Positions 1 through 7,388 of a stretch of DNA of 64,000 nt are shown in pieces. The stretch's first letter is position 1; the number at the start of each line of letters is the position of its first letter. A program made the position numbers and the translations under genes. The notes under the pieces were generated by a model that was not told the origin of the DNA, did not search any database, and saw nothing but the letters and a program-made list of their open reading frames with translations. The DNA is from Bacteroidales bacterium. GTDB lineage: Bacteria; Bacteroidota; Bacteroidia; Bacteroidales; UBA1402. The stretch is taken from NCBI GenBank assembly GCA_028709215.1, contig JAQVXI010000001.1, positions 186,537-250,536 on the forward strand, given 5' to 3'.

Positions 1-368
1 AAGTCTTCGGAAAACCCGGAGGCCAGCGTGTGGGCTTCATCCAAACGGCCGGAAAGAAGTAAGGACCAATAATACCAATACAGAACAAACTCATCGTGCT
101 TGTTCCATTGATGGGCTTTGGAAAAATGCTGACTGGCCAAGCGGTACTTTTTCTGTTCGTATGCGGCTTTTCCTGCACGCAGTCTCAAGTAGTAAAAATC
201 AACTCCCTGGGCAAGACTTTGTTGGGTGGCCAAAAGCACACTGTCCCATTCGGACCGCATATACTGTCCGTAGGTGAGCGAATCAATTTCAGCCCAAGCG
301 GTTTGTGCCGTCAGGTAAAAATGCGATGCCAACAGCCAGCAGCCAAAAACGATCAATCGTTTGTACAT
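1..368 (-). CDS. Exported TPR-like protein, 3' end cut by window edge
   Basis: Only the N-terminal 122 or so codons are inside the window; the gene continues past the left edge. It opens with a signal peptide (MYKRLIVFGCWLLASHF then a small-residue stretch ending near LTAQ), so the product is exported. The mature part alternates short amphipathic helices (YYLRLRAGKAAYEQKKYRLA, then SQHFSKAHQWN), which looks like tetratricopeptide-type repeats. Its start overlaps the end of the urea-transporter/M23 gene by 16 bases, so it is very probably the last visible gene of the operon that begins at 5961. Bacteroidetes often encode a beta-barrel after such N-terminal TPRs, but that part is not visible. 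Confidence 0.75.
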   Translation of the reverse strand, partial: MYKRLIVFGCWLLASHFYLTAQTAWAEIDSLTYGQYMRSEWDSVLLATQQSLAQGVDFYYLRLRAGKAAYEQKKYRLASQHFSKAHQWNKHDEFVLYWYYWSLLLSGRLDEAHTLASGFSED

Positions 369-2515
369 ATTGCTGTAAATTTCGTATGGTTGTATGTTGC
401 ATAAAAATGTGTAATCCCCGTTTGATCCAACTGTAGACGAAACGTTGTATCGCTGCCTTTTTGCCGTGTTACAACCGATATCAATTCGGCAGAAGGATCC
501 AGAAAATCATCACTAAAATGTCCATATTTCATGCGGTAATCAGCGTTCAAAAAAAGATGGAACGGAGCGATAAAATCCTGTAGAAAGCGTTGAATGCCGC
601 CAAACATTTGGTTGGCTGGTAATCGATCGTGCAAGGTCAGTTTGGGTTCGTAAGCCAGAACAACCCGGTAGCAGGCTACATAAAAGAAATAAAGCAACGA
701 TTTATGTGTGCCCAGAAAATTCACAAAGGAGTGTACTTCACCGTTGTTGTAAAACCAAGCGGTTGCACCGGTACGACTGCATTCTAGATAACTGTTGTTG
801 TATTCATCTGTTTTGACCAACCATTCATGACGCCCGTCCAGCCATGCCAGACCACTGTCGTGTACCTCGAAGGTCATCGTACGACCGGGCAAGAGGTGAA
901 AGGCTGCATCCAAAATGGGGTGTTTTTGTATGGCTGTAACGTGCTCATCCAAACGTGGTATGGCGTGTGTGTTTAATTCGACCCCGGATGCCTTTCGAAC
1001 CAGGTAATTGGATAATGGGTACGCTTTGGTTTTGCTTCCGATATGGGGTGTTTCCTGTAGCTGAAAATGAAGGTGCGGATAGGGAGATCGGCCGGAGTTA
1101 CCACACAAAGCGAGCACATCCCCTTTTTTGACAACATCGCCCTTTTTAATTTTGATGGACCCGGGTTTGAGGTGGCTCAGTTGAGCGTATAAATCATCTT
1201 GAAGCTTGATCACAACGGTATTGCCCCAGTTCTGTTGTGTGTTTGCATCGCCAATAAGATTGTCTGGAATGCCATCCAGCACATCTGCAACGATACCATC
1301 CGCCGGAGCGGTAATGGGTTTCTCGTAACAATAATAGTCGCGAACGTCCAAGCCTTTGCCTTTGAACTGCTGAGCATTTTGACCGTAAACGATCAGATCC
1401 AATGCATGTGCCCATTCGCCTTTGTGGGTGTGTTCGCCGTGGTAGGCCTGACTGATCGTCCACTCGCCCAAGACGGGCAAACCCACCGGAATGAACTCCG
1501 AGTTTAAGAACCGAGCGGAGTTGCTGCGTTCCTGGTAGACGTTTTTTTCCGGACTGAATAATTGGATGGGTGTTTCCTTCAGGCCTTTTCCTGGGTTTTC
1601 TCGAATCTTTAATATGTATAAAAAAGTCAAAACCAATAGGTTAAAAGGAAGCGAGTACATGCCCAGACCCAACGAAATAAAAAATGACTGCATCCCTAAG
1701 GTGATCACAATGACCATTGGCAACAACAGTATAAGCCATAGATAAGATTTGTATGAAGGTATAATGAAAAATCCGCCCAAGGCAATGCTGGTCAAAATGT
1801 AATTAAACCCAATGTAACTGTAACCCAACGCAGTCAGATCGGCACCGGTGAGTTGATAAAACATCCAAGCCAAGGTAAATCCGAAGATGGAAAGTGAAAA
1901 GGCAATCCTTGAATACATTAAAAGCCCCAAGGCAATGACAAAACCTGCCAGTAAGTTGTACTGAAAAAAGATGGCACCCAATGAAAAAAGGTACGTACGT
2001 AGAGCCTGACCGGTAATCAATGCATCAAACCATTGGAACCATTCGATCAATTGAAGTCCCCCCAATGCGTACAGCTCGTTGTTGATGTAAATACCACGGA
2101 TGCTGAGCCCCAGCAGGCTGAATTCAGCCGAAGCTTTCATGATCAACCAAATGCCCAGCAAAAACGGAATGCTCAGATAGGGTAGCGCATATTTGTACAA
2201 AAAACCCTGTATTCCTATGGTGAAAAATAAGGTTAAAAGTGCGGAAACGACAACGAGTAGATAAAAGGCCGCACTGGGCTGAAACGTGAGGCCAAAACCC
2301 AGACCCACCAGCAATGCATTGTATCCGTAAAAACCCTTTTCAATAAACCAGCGGTTGTATCCCATCCGGGATGCAGCTGTGTTGGCTACAAGTACCGATA
2401 AGGCTCCGGCAATACCGGCCAATGGGTCAAAAAAACTGACGATGACCAAAAGCCAGGCCAACCAACGGTGATCGGAAAAAAAGACTTGTGCATAACTGTT
2501 TAGAAAAGCGTTCAT
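353..2515 (-). CDS. Urea transporter-like membrane domain fused to an M23 metallopeptidase domain
   Basis: A 720-residue two-part protein. Residues about 1-305 are strongly hydrophobic with many membrane segments and two urea-transporter (UT family) style repeats: GFYGYNALLVGLGFGL near 61-76 and GFNYILTSIALGG near 236-248. Residues about 340-490 form an M23 (lysostaphin-type) zinc peptidase domain: H370-x-x-D373, H448 and H481-L-H483 supply the expected metal and catalytic residues, and APADGIVADV is the usual beta-strand entry. About 230 further residues follow without a recognised domain. Urea channels are normally 300-400 residues and stand alone. The gene lies 6 bases after the decarboxylase gene and overlaps the next gene. 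Whether the channel half moves urea or another small amide is unknown. The M23 half may cleave peptidoglycan or a peptide made by the operon. Confidence 0.85.
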   Translation of the reverse strand: MNAFLNSYAQVFFSDHRWLAWLLVIVSFFDPLAGIAGALSVLVANTAASRMGYNRWFIEKGFYGYNALLVGLGFGLTFQPSAAFYLLVVVSALLTLFFTIGIQGFLYKYALPYLSIPFLLGIWLIMKASAEFSLLGLSIRGIYINNELYALGGLQLIEWFQWFDALITGQALRTYLFSLGAIFFQYNLLAGFVIALGLLMYSRIAFSLSIFGFTLAWMFYQLTGADLTALGYSYIGFNYILTSIALGGFFIIPSYKSYLWLILLLPMVIVITLGMQSFFISLGLGMYSLPFNLLVLTFLYILKIRENPGKGLKETPIQLFSPEKNVYQERSNSARFLNSEFIPVGLPVLGEWTISQAYHGEHTHKGEWAHALDLIVYGQNAQQFKGKGLDVRDYYCYEKPITAPADGIVADVLDGIPDNLIGDANTQQNWGNTVVIKLQDDLYAQLSHLKPGSIKIKKGDVVKKGDVLALCGNSGRSPYPHLHFQLQETPHIGSKTKAYPLSNYLVRKASGVELNTHAIPRLDEHVTAIQKHPILDAAFHLLPGRTMTFEVHDSGLAWLDGRHEWLVKTDEYNNSYLECSRTGATAWFYNNGEVHSFVNFLGTHKSLLYFFYVACYRVVLAYEPKLTLHDRLPANQMFGGIQRFLQDFIAPFHLFLNADYRMKYGHFSDDFLDPSAELISVVTRQKGSDTTFRLQLDQTGITHFYATYNHTKFTAICTND

Positions 2516-2521
2516 GGGCCG

Positions 2522-3868
2522 TTATTTCAAGTAATCGGGGACAAGCTCGTTCTGTTGGAAGGTTTCAAGTGATTCCTTTTTACGTATGATATACGGATTG
2601 CCGTCATCGGCCAAAAGGACAACGTTGGGACGATACGCAATGAATTGCATCCATTGGGTCATGTTGTAGGCTCCAATTCGTTCAATGACCACCGGATCAC
2701 CCGGTTGCAAGAGTGGGAATCGAATGGCTTGACGTATGACGTCTATATTCATGCACAAAGGGCCGCATATTTGTGTATCCTCCGCATCCGCATTGACCGG
2801 GATCCCCGGCATGATGCTGTGTTCGTACCAAAAGGATGTAAACAGATTGTTGACACCGATATCGATGATCATGCCTCTTCTTCCCGACGCCATGCGTTTG
2901 TTTGCAATCACTGTGCCTAGAAGGTATCCGGCATCATCGATGAGCGCTCGTCCTGTCTCTAAGATGAGCAGGGGCATGTCTTCCGGACGAATCTCTGAAT
3001 GAAACAATGCCCCGGTAATGGCGTCGGCGTATTCGTCAAACGTCGGACAGGTATCGGATCCGGGTAGGTAGGCGCCTTTAAGGGTGTTTCGAGTGGCAAA
3101 ACCACCACCCATATCGATGTATTTCAGTTTATGGGCAAATTTGCGATCGGTACGTACTGCGAGTTCGGCCAGCTTGGATGCAGCAACCGCATAACCCGAC
3201 GGGCTCATGATGTATGTCCCAATGTGTGTATGTAGGCCTACCAACTCCATGCCTTCACTGGCCATGATGCGATTGATGGCGTTCCATGCCTCACCGTTTT
3301 CGTAATTAAAACCGAATCGTTCCCATTGAGGATAAATCCCGGTGTCCATATTGATGCGAATGGCGACCTTGGCTTTTGTTCCATCGTGTTGGGTCATCTG
3401 AATAATTTGATACAGCTCGTCAAAATGATCAATGTGGATGAGTGAGCCGTTTTGTATGGCTGCTTTCAGTTCCTCTTGGCTTTTGTGTGGGCCGTTGAAG
3501 ATGATTTTTTTTGGGTCGACCCCATTGTGCACCGCTTTCTCGTATTCAAACCAGGAAACCACTTCGGCCCAAGATCCTTCTTGATGATAAATGCGACAGA
3601 CTGCATCCAAGTAGTTTGTTTTGTACGACCAGGCCATCTGTACTTTTGGGTAGCGCGTAGTAAATGCCTGAATCAGTTCTCGATAGGTACTTCGTATGGT
3701 ATTTTCGGACAGGACGTATAGTGGGCTTCCGAACGTATTCAGTAGTTCGGTCACAGAATGACCTTCGATGTCTGTCTTGGATTCCAATACAAATTTGGCT
3801 CCGAATTTGTCGGGCAGACCGCTTTGAATTTTGTTGATAACCGGTCGTTCGTAGCGTATTTTTTCCAT
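2522..3868 (-). CDS. Fold-III PLP-dependent decarboxylase (diaminopimelate/ornithine decarboxylase-like)
   Basis: A 448-residue enzyme of the alanine racemase-fold decarboxylase family. The PLP lysine is K83 in SYKTNY. H215 lies in THIGT, the phosphate-binding glycines are at 254-256 (MGGGFA), E304 is in ETGR where LysA has EPGR, the active-site cysteine region is CGPLC (368-372), and Y401 follows in AYN. These indicate a catalytically complete enzyme. The gene lies in an operon with an ATP-grasp ligase and an M23 peptidase and not with lysine genes, so I do not call it lysA. A role in decarboxylating a free or ligated amino acid is an inference. It starts 4 bases after the T9SS-tagged gene and ends 6 bases before the transporter fusion. 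Confidence 0.85.
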   Translation of the reverse strand: MEKIRYERPVINKIQSGLPDKFGAKFVLESKTDIEGHSVTELLNTFGSPLYVLSENTIRSTYRELIQAFTTRYPKVQMAWSYKTNYLDAVCRIYHQEGSWAEVVSWFEYEKAVHNGVDPKKIIFNGPHKSQEELKAAIQNGSLIHIDHFDELYQIIQMTQHDGTKAKVAIRINMDTGIYPQWERFGFNYENGEAWNAINRIMASEGMELVGLHTHIGTYIMSPSGYAVAASKLAELAVRTDRKFAHKLKYIDMGGGFATRNTLKGAYLPGSDTCPTFDEYADAITGALFHSEIRPEDMPLLILETGRALIDDAGYLLGTVIANKRMASGRRGMIIDIGVNNLFTSFWYEHSIMPGIPVNADAEDTQICGPLCMNIDVIRQAIRFPLLQPGDPVVIERIGAYNMTQWMQFIAYRPNVVLLADDGNPYIIRKKESLETFQQNELVPDYLK

Positions 3869-3872
3869 GGTA

Positions 3873-4655
3873 TTATGGTTTGACGATAAATTTTTTGGGT
3901 TCGATGGTTTTGGCGCTTCCTACAATGCGGTACGTATAAACCCCGGGGGTCCATTCACTTGTATGGAGATGTATTTGTTCCTGTTGTTGAATGTCCTGTT
4001 CACATTTGAGCTGTCCGGAAGCAGTATATACGAGTAATTTGCCCGATTCGATTTTTTCGGGAAGGGGTATGTTGATTCCGGAAACTGCAGGGTTGGGATA
4101 AGGATCGAGTGTGCCGAGGTAGGTTTGTGCCAGTATTGTGGCCGATCCCGGTAAGGCATAAACGTAGGTTTTGACCGATCCCGGATAAAAGGAGTTGTCG
4201 TATGCGTAGATGTTGAGTTTGTATACGTCTGTACCTGCTTGTTGTATGTAGGCATAAGTGCCACCGGTAATGGTGGCCAGTGTCGTTCCGGTTTCACTGA
4301 TGATTTTTGACAAATGCTGGTAGTAACCGTCGGTGGTTGTTGCAATCCATTTGTAGGCAGAATACCATAATTCAATGTTTGAATCACTGTTGAATAGGGT
4401 CTGTGTTACAAATTTGATGTCGTACAGGTAATAGTCAACCGGTAGGCTGATGGGGATGGTTTTCCACAGGCTGTGATCCAGATTGTATAGTCGGCATTCG
4501 CTTTTTGCTACATCCATCAGAAAGTATTTGTATTCGTTGTCGTTGATGCGTGTAACCGTAAGGGAATGGCTGTATGTCTGCTCCAATGCAAACTGAGCTT
4601 GCAGAGGCTTGCTGGCGAAGAGCAGCAGTATGAAGAGGCTTATATAGGTTTTCAT
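3873..4655 (-). CDS. Secreted protein with type IX secretion C-terminal sorting domain
   Basis: A 260-residue protein. It has a signal peptide (MKTYISLFILLLFASKPLQA) and a C-terminal block typical of T9SS type A sorting domains: LDPYPNPAVSG near 183, then a beta-rich stretch with LLVYTASGQL, a GVYTYRIV strand, and a final KKFIVKP. The central 160 residues are beta-rich, aromatic and unlike any family I recognise. Known biology: such tails direct cargo through the outer membrane, often to the cell surface. The gene sits between the ATP-grasp and decarboxylase genes with gaps of 11 and 4 bases, so it is co-transcribed with cytoplasmic enzymes, an unusual pairing. It might be the substrate, receptor or surface partner of the operon's product. 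Confidence 0.8.
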   Translation of the reverse strand: MKTYISLFILLLFASKPLQAQFALEQTYSHSLTVTRINDNEYKYFLMDVAKSECRLYNLDHSLWKTIPISLPVDYYLYDIKFVTQTLFNSDSNIELWYSAYKWIATTTDGYYQHLSKIISETGTTLATITGGTYAYIQQAGTDVYKLNIYAYDNSFYPGSVKTYVYALPGSATILAQTYLGTLDPYPNPAVSGINIPLPEKIESGKLLVYTASGQLKCEQDIQQQEQIHLHTSEWTPGVYTYRIVGSAKTIEPKKFIVKP

Positions 4656-4666
4656 CGTTGTTTGAT

Positions 4667-5713
4667 TTAGAGTACGCCGTCCATTGAAATTTTTTCAAAT
4701 TGACTGATGTCTCCCAGCATATCCCAGGAATATCGGATAAACATTTTTCCAACCTGGTAGGGGGGATACGAGGGGACTTCCCTTTGCATGGCCAACTTGA
4801 CCAGCGCTTCCGGAATGTTCTGGCCGGCTCCAACGGCCAGATAAACCCAGGCCGGAATTCTTGGATTAATCTCAATTAAGTAATACCCACCCGACGTGGT
4901 TTTGATCATTTCAAGTTCCATGCCACCTCTCCAGTTGGTACGGGCAATGAGGTTGTGTGTAATTTCCATCATTTTCGGATCATTGATGGTAATGCCGCCC
5001 CAAGCTTTGCCTTTGTCGGTGATGTATTGCTTGCGCATGGATACAGCGGCAACCGTTCGTCCGCTGCCGTCTCCCAAAGCGACGACGTTGACCTCTGTCC
5101 CTTTGATAAATTCTTGTACAATAACCGGTAGCCCCCATTTGGCGGCGATTTTGTTGAAATGGTTGATGACCTGTTCGGAATTGTAGGCCAGATAGGCGTC
5201 GTAAAATTTTCCTTTGACCAGAACCGGATAATCAAACTCTTCTCTCAGGGAAGGGATGTCGTTGAGGCTGGTAAGCTCTTTTGAACGGGGCACTTGTACC
5301 TCATATTTCTTGCCGTAGGCCGGTAGGTTGATTTTGCTGCGTTCGTCCAATTGTTCCAGGGTGGGCAGGTAGGTACGAATGCCGTGTTCGGCCAAAAGTT
5401 TTTCGGATTTGATGAAGGTATACAACTCTGCATCAAAATTGGGAATGATCAGGTCGATGCGTTCAATCCGATGAATTTCCAGGATGCGGTTAAAAAATAC
5501 TTTCGTTCCTGCCGAGGGGTAGGGGATCAGGTAGGTTTTGTCGGTGATGCCCGGCATGTAGATACCTGGTTCGAGATTTTCGTAAGCCAAACCGATGATG
5601 CGTACATCCAGGTCTGTTGATTCACGAATGCCGCGTATAACAGGTACTCCCGGTCCCGGATTGTCGGTGTTGTTGAGTCCGGTTACGGCAATGGTTATGT
5701 GTTGTTTTGTCAT
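4667..5713 (-). CDS. ATP-grasp ligase, carbamoyl-phosphate-synthase-like
   Basis: A 348-residue stand-alone ATP-grasp enzyme. The N-terminal Rossmann-like part (ITIAVTGLNN, PGVPVIRGIR) is followed by the ATP-grasp core: K167 in YPVLVKGK, E201 in VQEFIKGTEVNV, the acidic metal ligands in GMELEM (264-269), and E281 and N283 in IEINPR. It probably couples a carboxylate to an amine using ATP, as the family does. Substrates cannot be read from sequence. Its start codon overlaps the stop of the PqqD-like gene (ATGA), so the two are translationally coupled and may work as a pair, much as PqqD-like domains present peptides to modifying enzymes. A peptide ligase is one possibility; a small-molecule amide ligase is another. 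Confidence 0.85.
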   Translation of the reverse strand: MTKQHITIAVTGLNNTDNPGPGVPVIRGIRESTDLDVRIIGLAYENLEPGIYMPGITDKTYLIPYPSAGTKVFFNRILEIHRIERIDLIIPNFDAELYTFIKSEKLLAEHGIRTYLPTLEQLDERSKINLPAYGKKYEVQVPRSKELTSLNDIPSLREEFDYPVLVKGKFYDAYLAYNSEQVINHFNKIAAKWGLPVIVQEFIKGTEVNVVALGDGSGRTVAAVSMRKQYITDKGKAWGGITINDPKMMEITHNLIARTNWRGGMELEMIKTTSGGYYLIEINPRIPAWVYLAVGAGQNIPEALVKLAMQREVPSYPPYQVGKMFIRYSWDMLGDISQFEKISMDGVL

Positions 5714-5961
5714 GGGTTACAGTCTTCACAAAGGTTGTAATGTTGTAGCATCGCAAGAAAATCAATGAGGTTTTTCTCAAACGTAACGGATTCGACTTCG
5801 TATCGTTCCAGCATGCTTACCTTGATTTGTTCGATTGTCTTGCCTTGTTTCATCAAAAAGATGATCTCACGTGCAACGGCGTTGGTGGTATAGGAGTCAC
5901 CTGTGCCGGGGTCAAATAAAAACCCGTTGTCATTGATGGCTATGGTTGGTTTGATCTTCAT
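5710..5961 (-). CDS. PqqD-like small protein (RiPP recognition element fold)
   Basis: An 83-residue protein with the PqqD layout: a beta hairpin (AINDNGFLFDPGTGDSY), TTNAVAREIIFLMKQGKTIE as the conserved helix and turn, then EQIKVSMLERYEV and a final helix FEKNLIDFLAMLQHYNL. PqqD-family domains bind leader peptides of ribosomally made peptides and hand them to a tailoring enzyme. No radical-SAM gene is nearby. The partner appears to be the overlapping ATP-grasp gene. The tail carries CEDC (two cysteines), which is uncommon. It is the first gene of the operon, with a promoter -7 box 38 bases upstream. I found no convincing precursor peptide in the 91 bases between it and the AraC gene. Confidence 0.75.
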   Translation of the reverse strand: MKIKPTIAINDNGFLFDPGTGDSYTTNAVAREIIFLMKQGKTIEQIKVSMLERYEVESVTFEKNLIDFLAMLQHYNLCEDCNP

Positions 5962-5998
5962 CGTGTTTCGATTTTGAGGTTCGTTTGGATCATTAACA

Positions 5999-6006
5999 CA
6001 AAAATA
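5999..6006 (-). promoter_or_regulatory. Bacteroidetes -7 promoter box for the pqqD-like operon
   Basis: On the minus strand this reads TATTTTTG, matching TAnnTTTG. It predicts transcription starting near 5994 and a leader of about 33 bases before the ATG at 5961. I see no good TTTG at the -33 distance, so an activator may be needed. The AraC-type gene directly upstream is a candidate. Confidence 0.5.
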
Positions 6007-6052
6007 AGGGCTGTTGCCCCGGGGATTGGTATGGAATTTTGTAAAAGATGTG

Positions 6053-6634
6053 TCAAATGTTGTTTTTGGAGCGATAATCGCGTACGCTTAGCCCGGTATG
6101 TTTCTTAAACTGATTGGACAAATATTGCACGCTGCTGTAATCCATCATGTAAGCGATTTCACTTAGACTAAATTCTCCTTCGTTGATGAGTTGTTTGATG
6201 CGTTCGATTTTGTGTTGAATAATGTATTTTTCGAGTGTCATGCCTTCGTGTTTGGAAAATAATCGGGATAATTTTTGGTAACTTACCCCGAGTCTTTCTA
6301 CCAGGTAATCGGATTTCTGTACGATGGAATTGACGTTGTTCATGCGATGAATTAAGTCAACGACCGCTTTTTTTGTATCGTCAACCAATTGTTCCTCACT
6401 TGAATGGATTAGGAACATGTCGTAGGCTTGAAGTTGTCGGTTGAGGCTGTTTCGATCAAAGGTTTGCTGATTGATGAGTACCTCTGCTTGTCCCATTTCC
6501 AGTTGTTTTATTTGTATGTTGTTGATTATCAGAATGTCCTCTACGACCTTAAGGCAGCTTTTGCACAACATGTTCCCGATTCGAAGGGTTTCTCGAAGGT
6601 AGGGCGTCGAGTGTAGGTAGACGAGGTCTGACAT
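6053..6634 (-). CDS. AraC-family regulator with N-terminal CxxC, HMA-like domain
   Basis: A 193-residue regulator starting at MSDLVYLHS; the longer frame to 6775 would run into the divergent promoter. The first 80 residues resemble the heavy-metal-associated-like fold used by a family of small Bacteroidetes AraC proteins, with MLCKSC near 20-25. The C-terminal 100 residues hold the two-helix-turn-helix AraC domain, clearest in SLSEIAYMMDYSSVQYLSNQ and FKKHTGLSVRDYR. It lies 91 bases upstream of the pqqD-like operon on the same strand and is divergent from the SGNH hydrolase. Either could be its target. The ligand is unknown; in this family the CxxC is often described as metal- or redox-sensing, but here that is inference. 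Confidence 0.85.
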   Translation of the reverse strand: MSDLVYLHSTPYLRETLRIGNMLCKSCLKVVEDILIINNIQIKQLEMGQAEVLINQQTFDRNSLNRQLQAYDMFLIHSSEEQLVDDTKKAVVDLIHRMNNVNSIVQKSDYLVERLGVSYQKLSRLFSKHEGMTLEKYIIQHKIERIKQLINEGEFSLSEIAYMMDYSSVQYLSNQFKKHTGLSVRDYRSKNNI

Positions 6635-6681
6635 GGTAACAAAGGTTCTATTGTTTATTAACCCATGAAACGGCCAAATTG

Positions 6682-6711
6682 TTTGTTTGGAATGTAAAAT
6701 AACTATCTTTG
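6682..6711 (+). promoter_or_regulatory. Promoter for the SGNH hydrolase gene
   Basis: TTTG at 6682-6685 and TATCTTTG at 6704-6711 match the Bacteroidetes -33/-7 elements with 18 bases between. The -7 box ends only 5 bases before the ATG at 6717, which would give an almost leaderless mRNA. Confidence 0.6.
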
Positions 6712-6716
6712 CAAAC

Positions 6717-7388
6717 ATGAAAAAAGGAATTCGATTGTCTTTGTTTATCGTTCTCTTGATGTTTTTTGTCGACACAATGGTGGCTCAGGCGCTTTGTGAT
6801 GCTCCGTTGTATGGGAAAACGATTCACGTGATCGGTGACAGCTATGTGCGCAATCACAAGCGTCCTTATACGGAAACATGGCATTACAAAGTGGCTGAAA
6901 AGTATCAGATGACGTATCGGAATTATGGCAGGAATGGCAATTGCATCGCCTTTGACCGGGAGCGTTTTGGTCAATCCATGCTGCATCGGTTTGAGGAAAT
7001 GAACGATACGGCGGATTATGTGTTGGTGATTGCCGGGCACAACGATGCGGGAATGATCGGGGTAGAGGGCACGATGGAGCAGTTTCGTTTGGGCTTGGAC
7101 TCGTTGTGTCAGGGATTGATACGCAAATATCCGGCCGCCAAACTGGCTTTTGTGACTCCCTGGCGGGTGCCAAGAGCCAATTTTCCGGAGGTTACTCAGC
7201 AAATTGTGGAGGTCTGTGCTCAGTATTCCATTCCGGTGTACAATGCGGCTCAGGAGAGTGGCATCTATGTTTGGGAGGAAGCATTTCGTGCTCGCTTTTT
7301 TCAGGGACGCAACGATACGGCTCATTTGAATGCCGAGGGTCATGCCTTGTTTATGAATAAGGGAGAGCGCTTTTTATTGGAACTTTAA
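6717..7388 (+). CDS. Exported SGNH/GDSL-type hydrolase
   Basis: A 223-residue protein. I start it at MKKGIRLSLF because this gives a clean signal peptide ending near MVAQA; the frame is open back to 6687. Block I is HVIGDSYV with S42 as the likely nucleophile, block III is AGHND, and block V is NDTAHLNAEGH with Asp and His. All catalytic elements of an SGNH esterase or acylhydrolase are therefore visible. Export suggests action on cell-envelope or dietary glycans in the periplasm. Esterases of this kind remove acetyl or other acyl groups; the substrate cannot be assigned. It is followed 12 bases later by a small exported protein, probably on the same transcript. Confidence 0.85.
   Translation: MKKGIRLSLFIVLLMFFVDTMVAQALCDAPLYGKTIHVIGDSYVRNHKRPYTETWHYKVAEKYQMTYRNYGRNGNCIAFDRERFGQSMLHRFEEMNDTADYVLVIAGHNDAGMIGVEGTMEQFRLGLDSLCQGLIRKYPAAKLAFVTPWRVPRANFPEVTQQIVEVCAQYSIPVYNAAQESGIYVWEEAFRARFFQGRNDTAHLNAEGHALFMNKGERFLLEL

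Follow-up and report, generated by a model that had tools for sequence, protein, structure and literature searches.

RiPP recognition elements (RREs) are the peptide grippers of the pathways that make ribosomally synthesized and post-translationally modified peptides (RiPPs). The discrete RREs of lasso peptide pathways read a leader motif, [Y/W]xxPx[L/V/I/F/A] (PMC13381572), which is also listed as YxxP with hydrophobic substitutions noted (PMC12710340). In the complex of the RRE LppB with LppA, the leader is held at its Tyr by D70 of LppB and at its Pro by N33, and F74, M78 and L83 belong to the pocket (PMC13381572). On the enzyme side, N-citrylornithine decarboxylase has been placed in one group with SbnH, AcsE, MccE and BtrK, decarboxylases whose substrates are amino acids in conjugated form: BtrK acts on glutamate carried by the protein BtrI and MccE on a modified peptide, microcin C, and the same clade also holds diaminopimelate decarboxylases (PMC7857480). 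Here we analyse a gene cluster of a Bacteroidales bacterium contained in a stretch of 64,000 nucleotides (the window; GCA_028709215.1, contig JAQVXI010000001.1, positions 186,537 to 250,536), which encodes a PqqD-family protein, an ATP-grasp ligase, a pyridoxal phosphate (PLP)-dependent decarboxylase and a fusion of a urea transporter (UT) with an M23 peptidase (UT-M23). All its features lie on the minus strand and are given in window coordinates. In this cluster it is the decarboxylase that bears the RRE-type recognition sequence, and covariation, predicted fold and motif strongly support the binding of its leader-like tail by the PqqD protein, which we regard as very probable.

A lasso-type RRE and the tail of a decarboxylase

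The PqqD protein (5710..5961, 83 amino acids; PF05402, 39.9 bits against a curated cutoff of 23.4) appears closest to lasso RREs by both sequence and predicted fold. The best solved relatives of its profile were TbiB1 (E 9.7e-12) and TfuB1 (9.6e-8), with pyrroloquinoline quinone (PQQ) proteins behind (0.11 and 0.41), and its predicted model (predicted local distance difference test, pLDDT, 88.7) matched six PDB entries at E<=0.001, all of them lasso RREs solved with leader peptides. An ungapped alignment to LppB (chain 9x8z) places the N, D, F, M and L of that protein on N27 (codon 5881-5883), residue 64 (codon 5770-5772), F68, L72 and L77, and TbiB1, a much stronger match than LppB, likewise has Asp at the position of residue 64. 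N27 was present in 141/141 loci and residue 64 was Asp or Asn in 99 of the 100 loci with Tyr at tail residue 6, so that a conserved Asn and an Asp or its equivalent are found where the leader Pro and Tyr would be held. The locus shares with the lasso RREs TbiB1 and TfuB1/FusB1 the RRE fold and sequence, the YxxPx[hydrophobic] motif and the Tyr/Asp and Pro/Asn contact pairs; it differs in that the motif is on a 448-amino acid enzyme and theirs is on a short precursor. No lasso cyclase or B2 peptidase was seen among the conserved genes in general family searches and neighbour lists. With the LppB/LppA system of linear polyphosphorylated peptides it has in common a separate RRE protein and a YxxP leader, but LppA is a cleaved precursor peptide (PMC13381572) and the client here is an enzyme.

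The tail in question comprises residues 1-25 of the decarboxylase (3794..3868; YERPVI at 3836-3853, Lys21 at 3806-3808), a protein of 448 amino acids (2522..3868; PF02784, 112.3 bits against a cutoff of 23.4, and PF00278, 52.5 against 23). Profile alignments with 18 solved homologues begin at positions 31-39 of the profile and leave out about 30 N-terminal residues. In the AlphaFold model, pLDDT is <50 for residues 1-25 and for a short loop at 265-269, against a whole-protein mean of 83.7, and the tail is apparently disordered. Its sequence is nevertheless conserved, with the consensus MEKxxYERPxIxKINAGxPxKFG and a mean conservation of 0.64 for residues 2-25, compared to 0.41 for residues 26-33 and 0.73 for residues 34-448. 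P9 was found in all 140 rows with a residue there, K21 in 141/141 and G23 in 140/141; the motif [Y/W]xxPx[L/V/I/F/A] fits the tail in 99/141 loci and a Phe-type version matches in 41. These counts refer to a final set of 141 rows, from which L139, L198 and L205 (the last two from the genomes of L034 and L066) and L227-L243 (from the genomes of L199-L225) were excluded; some genomes may still recur, so not all rows are independent, and 140 rows remain for residue 6, since in L209 the start was called too late to cover it.

Tail residue 6 and RRE residue 64 change together. In loci with Tyr6, residue 64 was D (71), N (28) or H (1), and with Phe6 it was Y (32), S (7) or H (1); scoring residue 64 as D/N or other, 139/140 loci agree, the exception being L089, which combines Tyr with His. 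The pair was the strongest of 2407 tail-RRE pairs (mutual information with average product correction, z 12.2) and by alignment falls where RRE and leader touch in the LppB-LppA complex (PMC13381572). As a control for ancestry, residue 64 explained 98.3% of the entropy of residue 6, and the next best of 849 columns, drawn from PqqD, ATP-grasp and the decarboxylase body, explained 52.8%. A tree of the ATP-grasp protein requires eight or more changes of residue 6 and eight of the class of residue 64. An earlier set of 112 rows (117 stretches, 113 of them with both proteins and one of these, L139, with X at residue 6) gave seven changes of each and three independent pairs on well-supported branches. 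The second strongest tail-RRE pair (z 8.4) joins tail residue 20, which adjoins the invariant Lys21, to the same PqqD residue 64, a signal of either shared ancestry or a second contact.

The initial annotation had proposed looking for a small precursor gene shared by such clusters, and none was found. A profile of the tail gave 25 strong matches (E<=6e-11) in 119 genomes, all of them in long frames that coincide in position with this decarboxylase, and nothing else above noise (next match E 0.026). Of the 26 genomes in this search that carry the ATP-grasp gene only G042 lacked a strong match, and there the contig ends within the decarboxylase gene before the tail is reached. Likewise, the motif was near the start of 0/506 other open reading frames (ORFs) of at least 60 amino acids in the first 35 stretches, shorter ones not being scanned there. 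A free precursor with the tail motif, and with it the short leader-plus-core peptide of RiPP pathways, was thus absent from what these searches covered, and we rejected the idea of a missing precursor peptide.

Gene order and co-occurrence in Bacteroidota

Six packed ORFs were found as the initial annotation had described them, with gaps of -4, 11, 4, 6 and -16 bases. Downstream of PqqD come the ATP-grasp ligase (4667..5713, 348 amino acids; PF15632, 42.2 bits against a cutoff of 29.1, and PF02655, 33.4 against 23.2), a protein with a C-terminal sorting domain of the type IX secretion system (T9SS; 3873..4655, 260 amino acids), the decarboxylase, UT-M23 (353..2515, 720 amino acids) and the start of a TPR protein (1..368, ORF 368-<1). 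The latter crosses the edge of the window and goes on in the same contig, where a second TPR protein follows as a seventh gene. The families that had been assigned were recovered above the curated Pfam cutoffs for all genes except the TPR gene (20.6 bits against 25). The spacing of the genes leads us to infer a single transcript; a scan for promoters and terminators gave 13 where 15.8 were expected and 10 where 10.0 were expected, respectively. Because none of the five non-cargo proteins reached an NCBIfam equivalog cutoff, the enzymes are not filed under a named function.

The genes occur together well beyond this genome. Among 149 sampled Bacteroidia genomes the ATP-grasp protein was found in 36 (E<=1e-30) and the decarboxylase (E<=1e-60) in those 36 and no others. 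The UT-M23 profile (E<=1e-30) matched these 36 and five more, three of them over the full length (G041, G100 and G115) and two only in the M23 part (G036 and G075), so that matches covering the UT part are confined to the 36 and to three genomes with another ligase/decarboxylase pair. Order is also kept. In 33 other loci of the class, PqqD was upstream of the ligase in 33/33, the decarboxylase next in 33/33 and UT-M23 next in 32/33. Among the named loci, which are the best 80 of at least 584 confirmed loci and biased toward close relatives, 78 had PqqD upstream (the other two being contig ends) and 79 had the decarboxylase after the ligase (one contig end); UT-M23 came next in 68, with nine contig ends and two loci in which it was not the following gene. 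A phylum-wide draw found the ligase in 34/395 genomes (E<=1e-60), and 20 phylum loci had PqqD in 19, the decarboxylase in 20 and UT-M23 in 20. The order counts were redone on all ORFs of at least 45 amino acids, as a simple gene caller had mis-picked some small genes, and neighbour counts for the two TPR profiles were not used because these may cross-match. An apparent ATP-grasp/decarboxylase fusion in L139 was rejected since its ORF crosses a run of N, and in G026 UT-M23 sits on a separate contig from the other cluster genes.

Conservation of the order across loci excludes chance. The initial annotation had held that the operon would be no system if its order were not conserved or if relatives of its genes occurred alone; order and co-occurrence are both conserved, and the cluster is probably a Bacteroidota system joining biosynthesis to the envelope. 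The T9SS protein (PF18962, 35.5 bits against 27; TIGR04183, 38.5 against 23), which had been counted as part of the route, is an occasional accessory and not core: relatives beyond the sorting domain were found in 0/33 other class loci and in 11/80 named loci, the latter count also leading us to drop the idea that it is unique to this genome. A frequent upstream neighbour, an AraC-type regulator (6053..6709; PF12833, 66.1 bits against 33.6), ends 91 bases upstream of PqqD, and its family was present in 10/34 class loci, this one included. In one relative of it (L036:2969-3571), the N-terminal part is weakly copper-chaperone/HMA-like, below cutoffs.

Enzymes, putative envelope proteins and an alternative pair

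The ligase retains in 141/141 loci K167, E207, E266, E268, E281, N283 and R285, which we take to be its catalytic ATP/Mg residues, and its sequence thus points to an ATP-grasp domain with this site intact. Profile matches bearing on a carbamoyl-phosphate or biotin-carboxylase role were weak and generic and allow no conclusion. The decarboxylase keeps K83 in 141/141 loci and C372 in 138/138 loci with a residue there, presumably the residues of an intact PLP site. In butirosin side-chain assembly, BtrJ is an ATP-grasp ligase. The present cluster resembles that assembly in pairing a ligase with an alanine-racemase-fold decarboxylase, the butirosin enzyme working on a carried amino acid (BtrK on BtrI; PMC7857480); it differs in that a carrier protein was not found in the cluster and in that an RRE is present. 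The solved structure nearest to the decarboxylase, by sequence and by model, is N-citrylornithine decarboxylase 7kh2 at 30% identity, and its nearest relatives, judged by best matches, belong to the alanine-racemase-fold clade that acts on conjugates. Its likeness to the FigC/FslC N-citrylornithine decarboxylases and to SbnH, AcsE, MccE and BtrK lies in this relationship to a clade using conjugated amino acids (PMC7857480), and its difference in the low identity and in a tail that falls outside the alignment. A role as housekeeping LysA (diaminopimelate decarboxylase) is unsupported: the best NCBIfam model, lysA TIGR01048, gave 236.9 bits against an equivalog cutoff of 297.9, and a second LysA-like gene lies elsewhere in the genome. 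Since the nearest decarboxylases use conjugated amino acids and the ATP-grasp and PLP residues are intact, an amine conjugate is by analogy the likeliest kind of product.

UT-M23 joins a urea transporter domain (1610-2512; PF03253, 178.8 bits against 25) to a peptidase domain (1052-1327; PF01551 Peptidase_M23, 51.8 against 28.7). Its UT profile aligned with solved urea transporters (dvUT 3k3f, UT-A/UT-B) across the whole domain; unlike them, the protein adds the M23 peptidase and an extra C-terminal part, and it stays below the cutoff of the bacterial urea transporter equivalog (TIGR03441, 113 against 275 bits). H364, D373, H448, H481 and H483, which we take to be the zinc and catalytic residues of the peptidase, were invariant in 26/26 aligned members. 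In G057 UT-M23 appears as two ORFs (L055:5290-5817 and 5931-7373), broken between the UT-plus-M23 start and the rest by either a frameshift or a true split. M23 proteins akin to the M23 part and devoid of the UT part were seen in G075 (L196:7706, 321 amino acids) and G036 (L197:3911, 350 amino acids). The long C-terminal part of the TPR gene product matched no Pfam family and may, from its sequence, form an outer-membrane barrel.

Three genomes, G041, G100 and G115, have the same UT-M23 and TPR genes in a divergent, back-to-back arrangement with a different ligase/decarboxylase pair (L179:5764-14828, L180:2948-12953 and L181:6113-15126). This alternative decarboxylase is a fold-type-I enzyme of the Orn/Lys/Arg type (PF01276, tested on the G115 protein), the alternative ATP-grasp protein belongs to NCBIfam PRK06524, labelled biotin carboxylase, and the loci also hold a 145-amino acid protein with no Pfam match. 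The PRK06524-type ligase (E<=1e-60) occurred in 9/149 genomes, none among the 36, and three of the nine have a full-length UT-M23; in the 149-genome sample the UT part is therefore found only in genomes with one or other ligase/decarboxylase pair, which suggests that both pairs share a common product type. Alternative pairs in L190, L191 and L195 have no UT-M23 nearby, and their neighbours, read by eye, are presumably an aminotransferase and a protein resembling nitrilases, which would point to amine metabolism. In addition, a 1465-amino acid ORF (L194:5644-10041) carries a PRK06524-type ATP-grasp in its last 489 residues, and its first part gave no match to the alternative decarboxylase (BLASTP, 1e-5).

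Competing readings and their meaning

All these data lead us to favour, with some confidence, a reading in which an RRE-scaffolded ligase/decarboxylase makes an amine conjugate that is handled by an envelope module. The PqqD protein would clamp the tail of the decarboxylase and so join ligase and decarboxylase as one complex; the ligase would link an acceptor with an amino acid, and the alpha-carboxylate of this conjugate would be stripped off by the decarboxylase, a chemistry suggested by the substrates of the nearest characterised decarboxylases. UT-M23 and the TPR proteins would act on the product at the envelope by passing it across, releasing it or trimming it, a role proposed because of their constant co-occurrence, and the invariant Lys21 may be either a ligase-docking residue or the acceptor of the ligase. 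Several observations weigh against this. The well-supported branches of the tree leave three independent changes of residue 6, which all agree with residue 64 (p 0.25) and are therefore not significant on their own; LppB itself aligns weakly (E 0.13); Phe, in 40/140 tails, lies outside the published [Y/W] motif; and the low pLDDT of the tail may partly come from a thin alignment (27 sequences). Furthermore, PqqD does not adjoin the ligase in 1/20 phylum loci, and in Pfam and NCBIfam searches the above-cutoff models for the ATP-grasp protein were broad Pfam ones, none of them specific.

What the tail does within such a complex can be read in more than one way. It is quite possible that it serves for docking only, tethering the PqqD protein and the ligase to the decarboxylase while a small free intermediate is handed over and the tail stays unmodified. 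The recognition motif and the covariation require binding alone, and distal leader residues serve the partner enzyme in LppA/LppS (PMC13381572); by itself, however, docking leaves the Lys at 141/141 unexplained while neighbouring positions vary. More tentatively, the decarboxylase could be its own carrier, its Lys21 being acylated with an amino acid by an RRE-guided ligase and the tethered residue then decarboxylated on its own tail or on that of a dimer partner. The invariant Lys21 and nearly invariant G23 in a disordered tail fit this idea, for which BtrK on the carrier BtrI and MccE on a modified peptide are precedents (PMC7857480), but an invariant Lys could equally serve docking, and the cluster has no obvious cytosolic peptidase or hydrolase for release. 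On the same footing, and equally tentatively, the decarboxylase may carry a RiPP-like leader of its own, which the lasso-type RRE would deliver to the ligase for charging at Lys21, with the amine product of the tethered residue passing through a urea-type channel that brings its own peptidase. The borosin methyltransferase modifies its own C-terminal segment, and both enzymes would bear a RiPP-like segment of their own, the difference being that the present one would need a separate ligase and an RRE.

A conventional RiPP pathway, in which a short precursor was missed and the resemblance of the tail to a leader is coincidental, seems improbable. RRE, ligase and decarboxylase families are all known in RiPP pathways, and ATP-grasp (PF02222) is among the RiPP markers given in PMC12710340, but the searches described above found the tail motif on the decarboxylase alone and it is with this tail that the RRE covaries. 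Least probable of all is that unrelated genes with separate roles, such as a LysA paralogue and a urea channel, merely travel together: each family is common elsewhere and lysA is the best model for the decarboxylase, but the identical distribution of ligase and decarboxylase, the confinement of the UT part and the second LysA-like gene speak against it, and the co-occurrence counts already contradict it. Of the route foreseen by the initial annotation, the logic of RRE, ligase and decarboxylase and the existence of a system are supported, the separate precursor and the T9SS cargo fall away, and an export or cleavage step is still something that we infer.

No description of an RRE paired with an enzyme tail, or of the whole gene set, was found among the papers listed by our searches of the open-licence PMC literature, which is no proof of novelty. 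What appears to be new is the arrangement, since every part comes from a known family and the principle of recognition is borrowed. Within a cluster found across Bacteroidota, an RRE has apparently taken on a metabolic enzyme as its client. If this is true, it would widen the range of RRE functions, warn genome miners that clusters with a "missing precursor" may bear the leader on an enzyme and provide a first functional context for urea transporter/M23 fusions, and the swap of residues 6 and 64 would give a direct test of binding.

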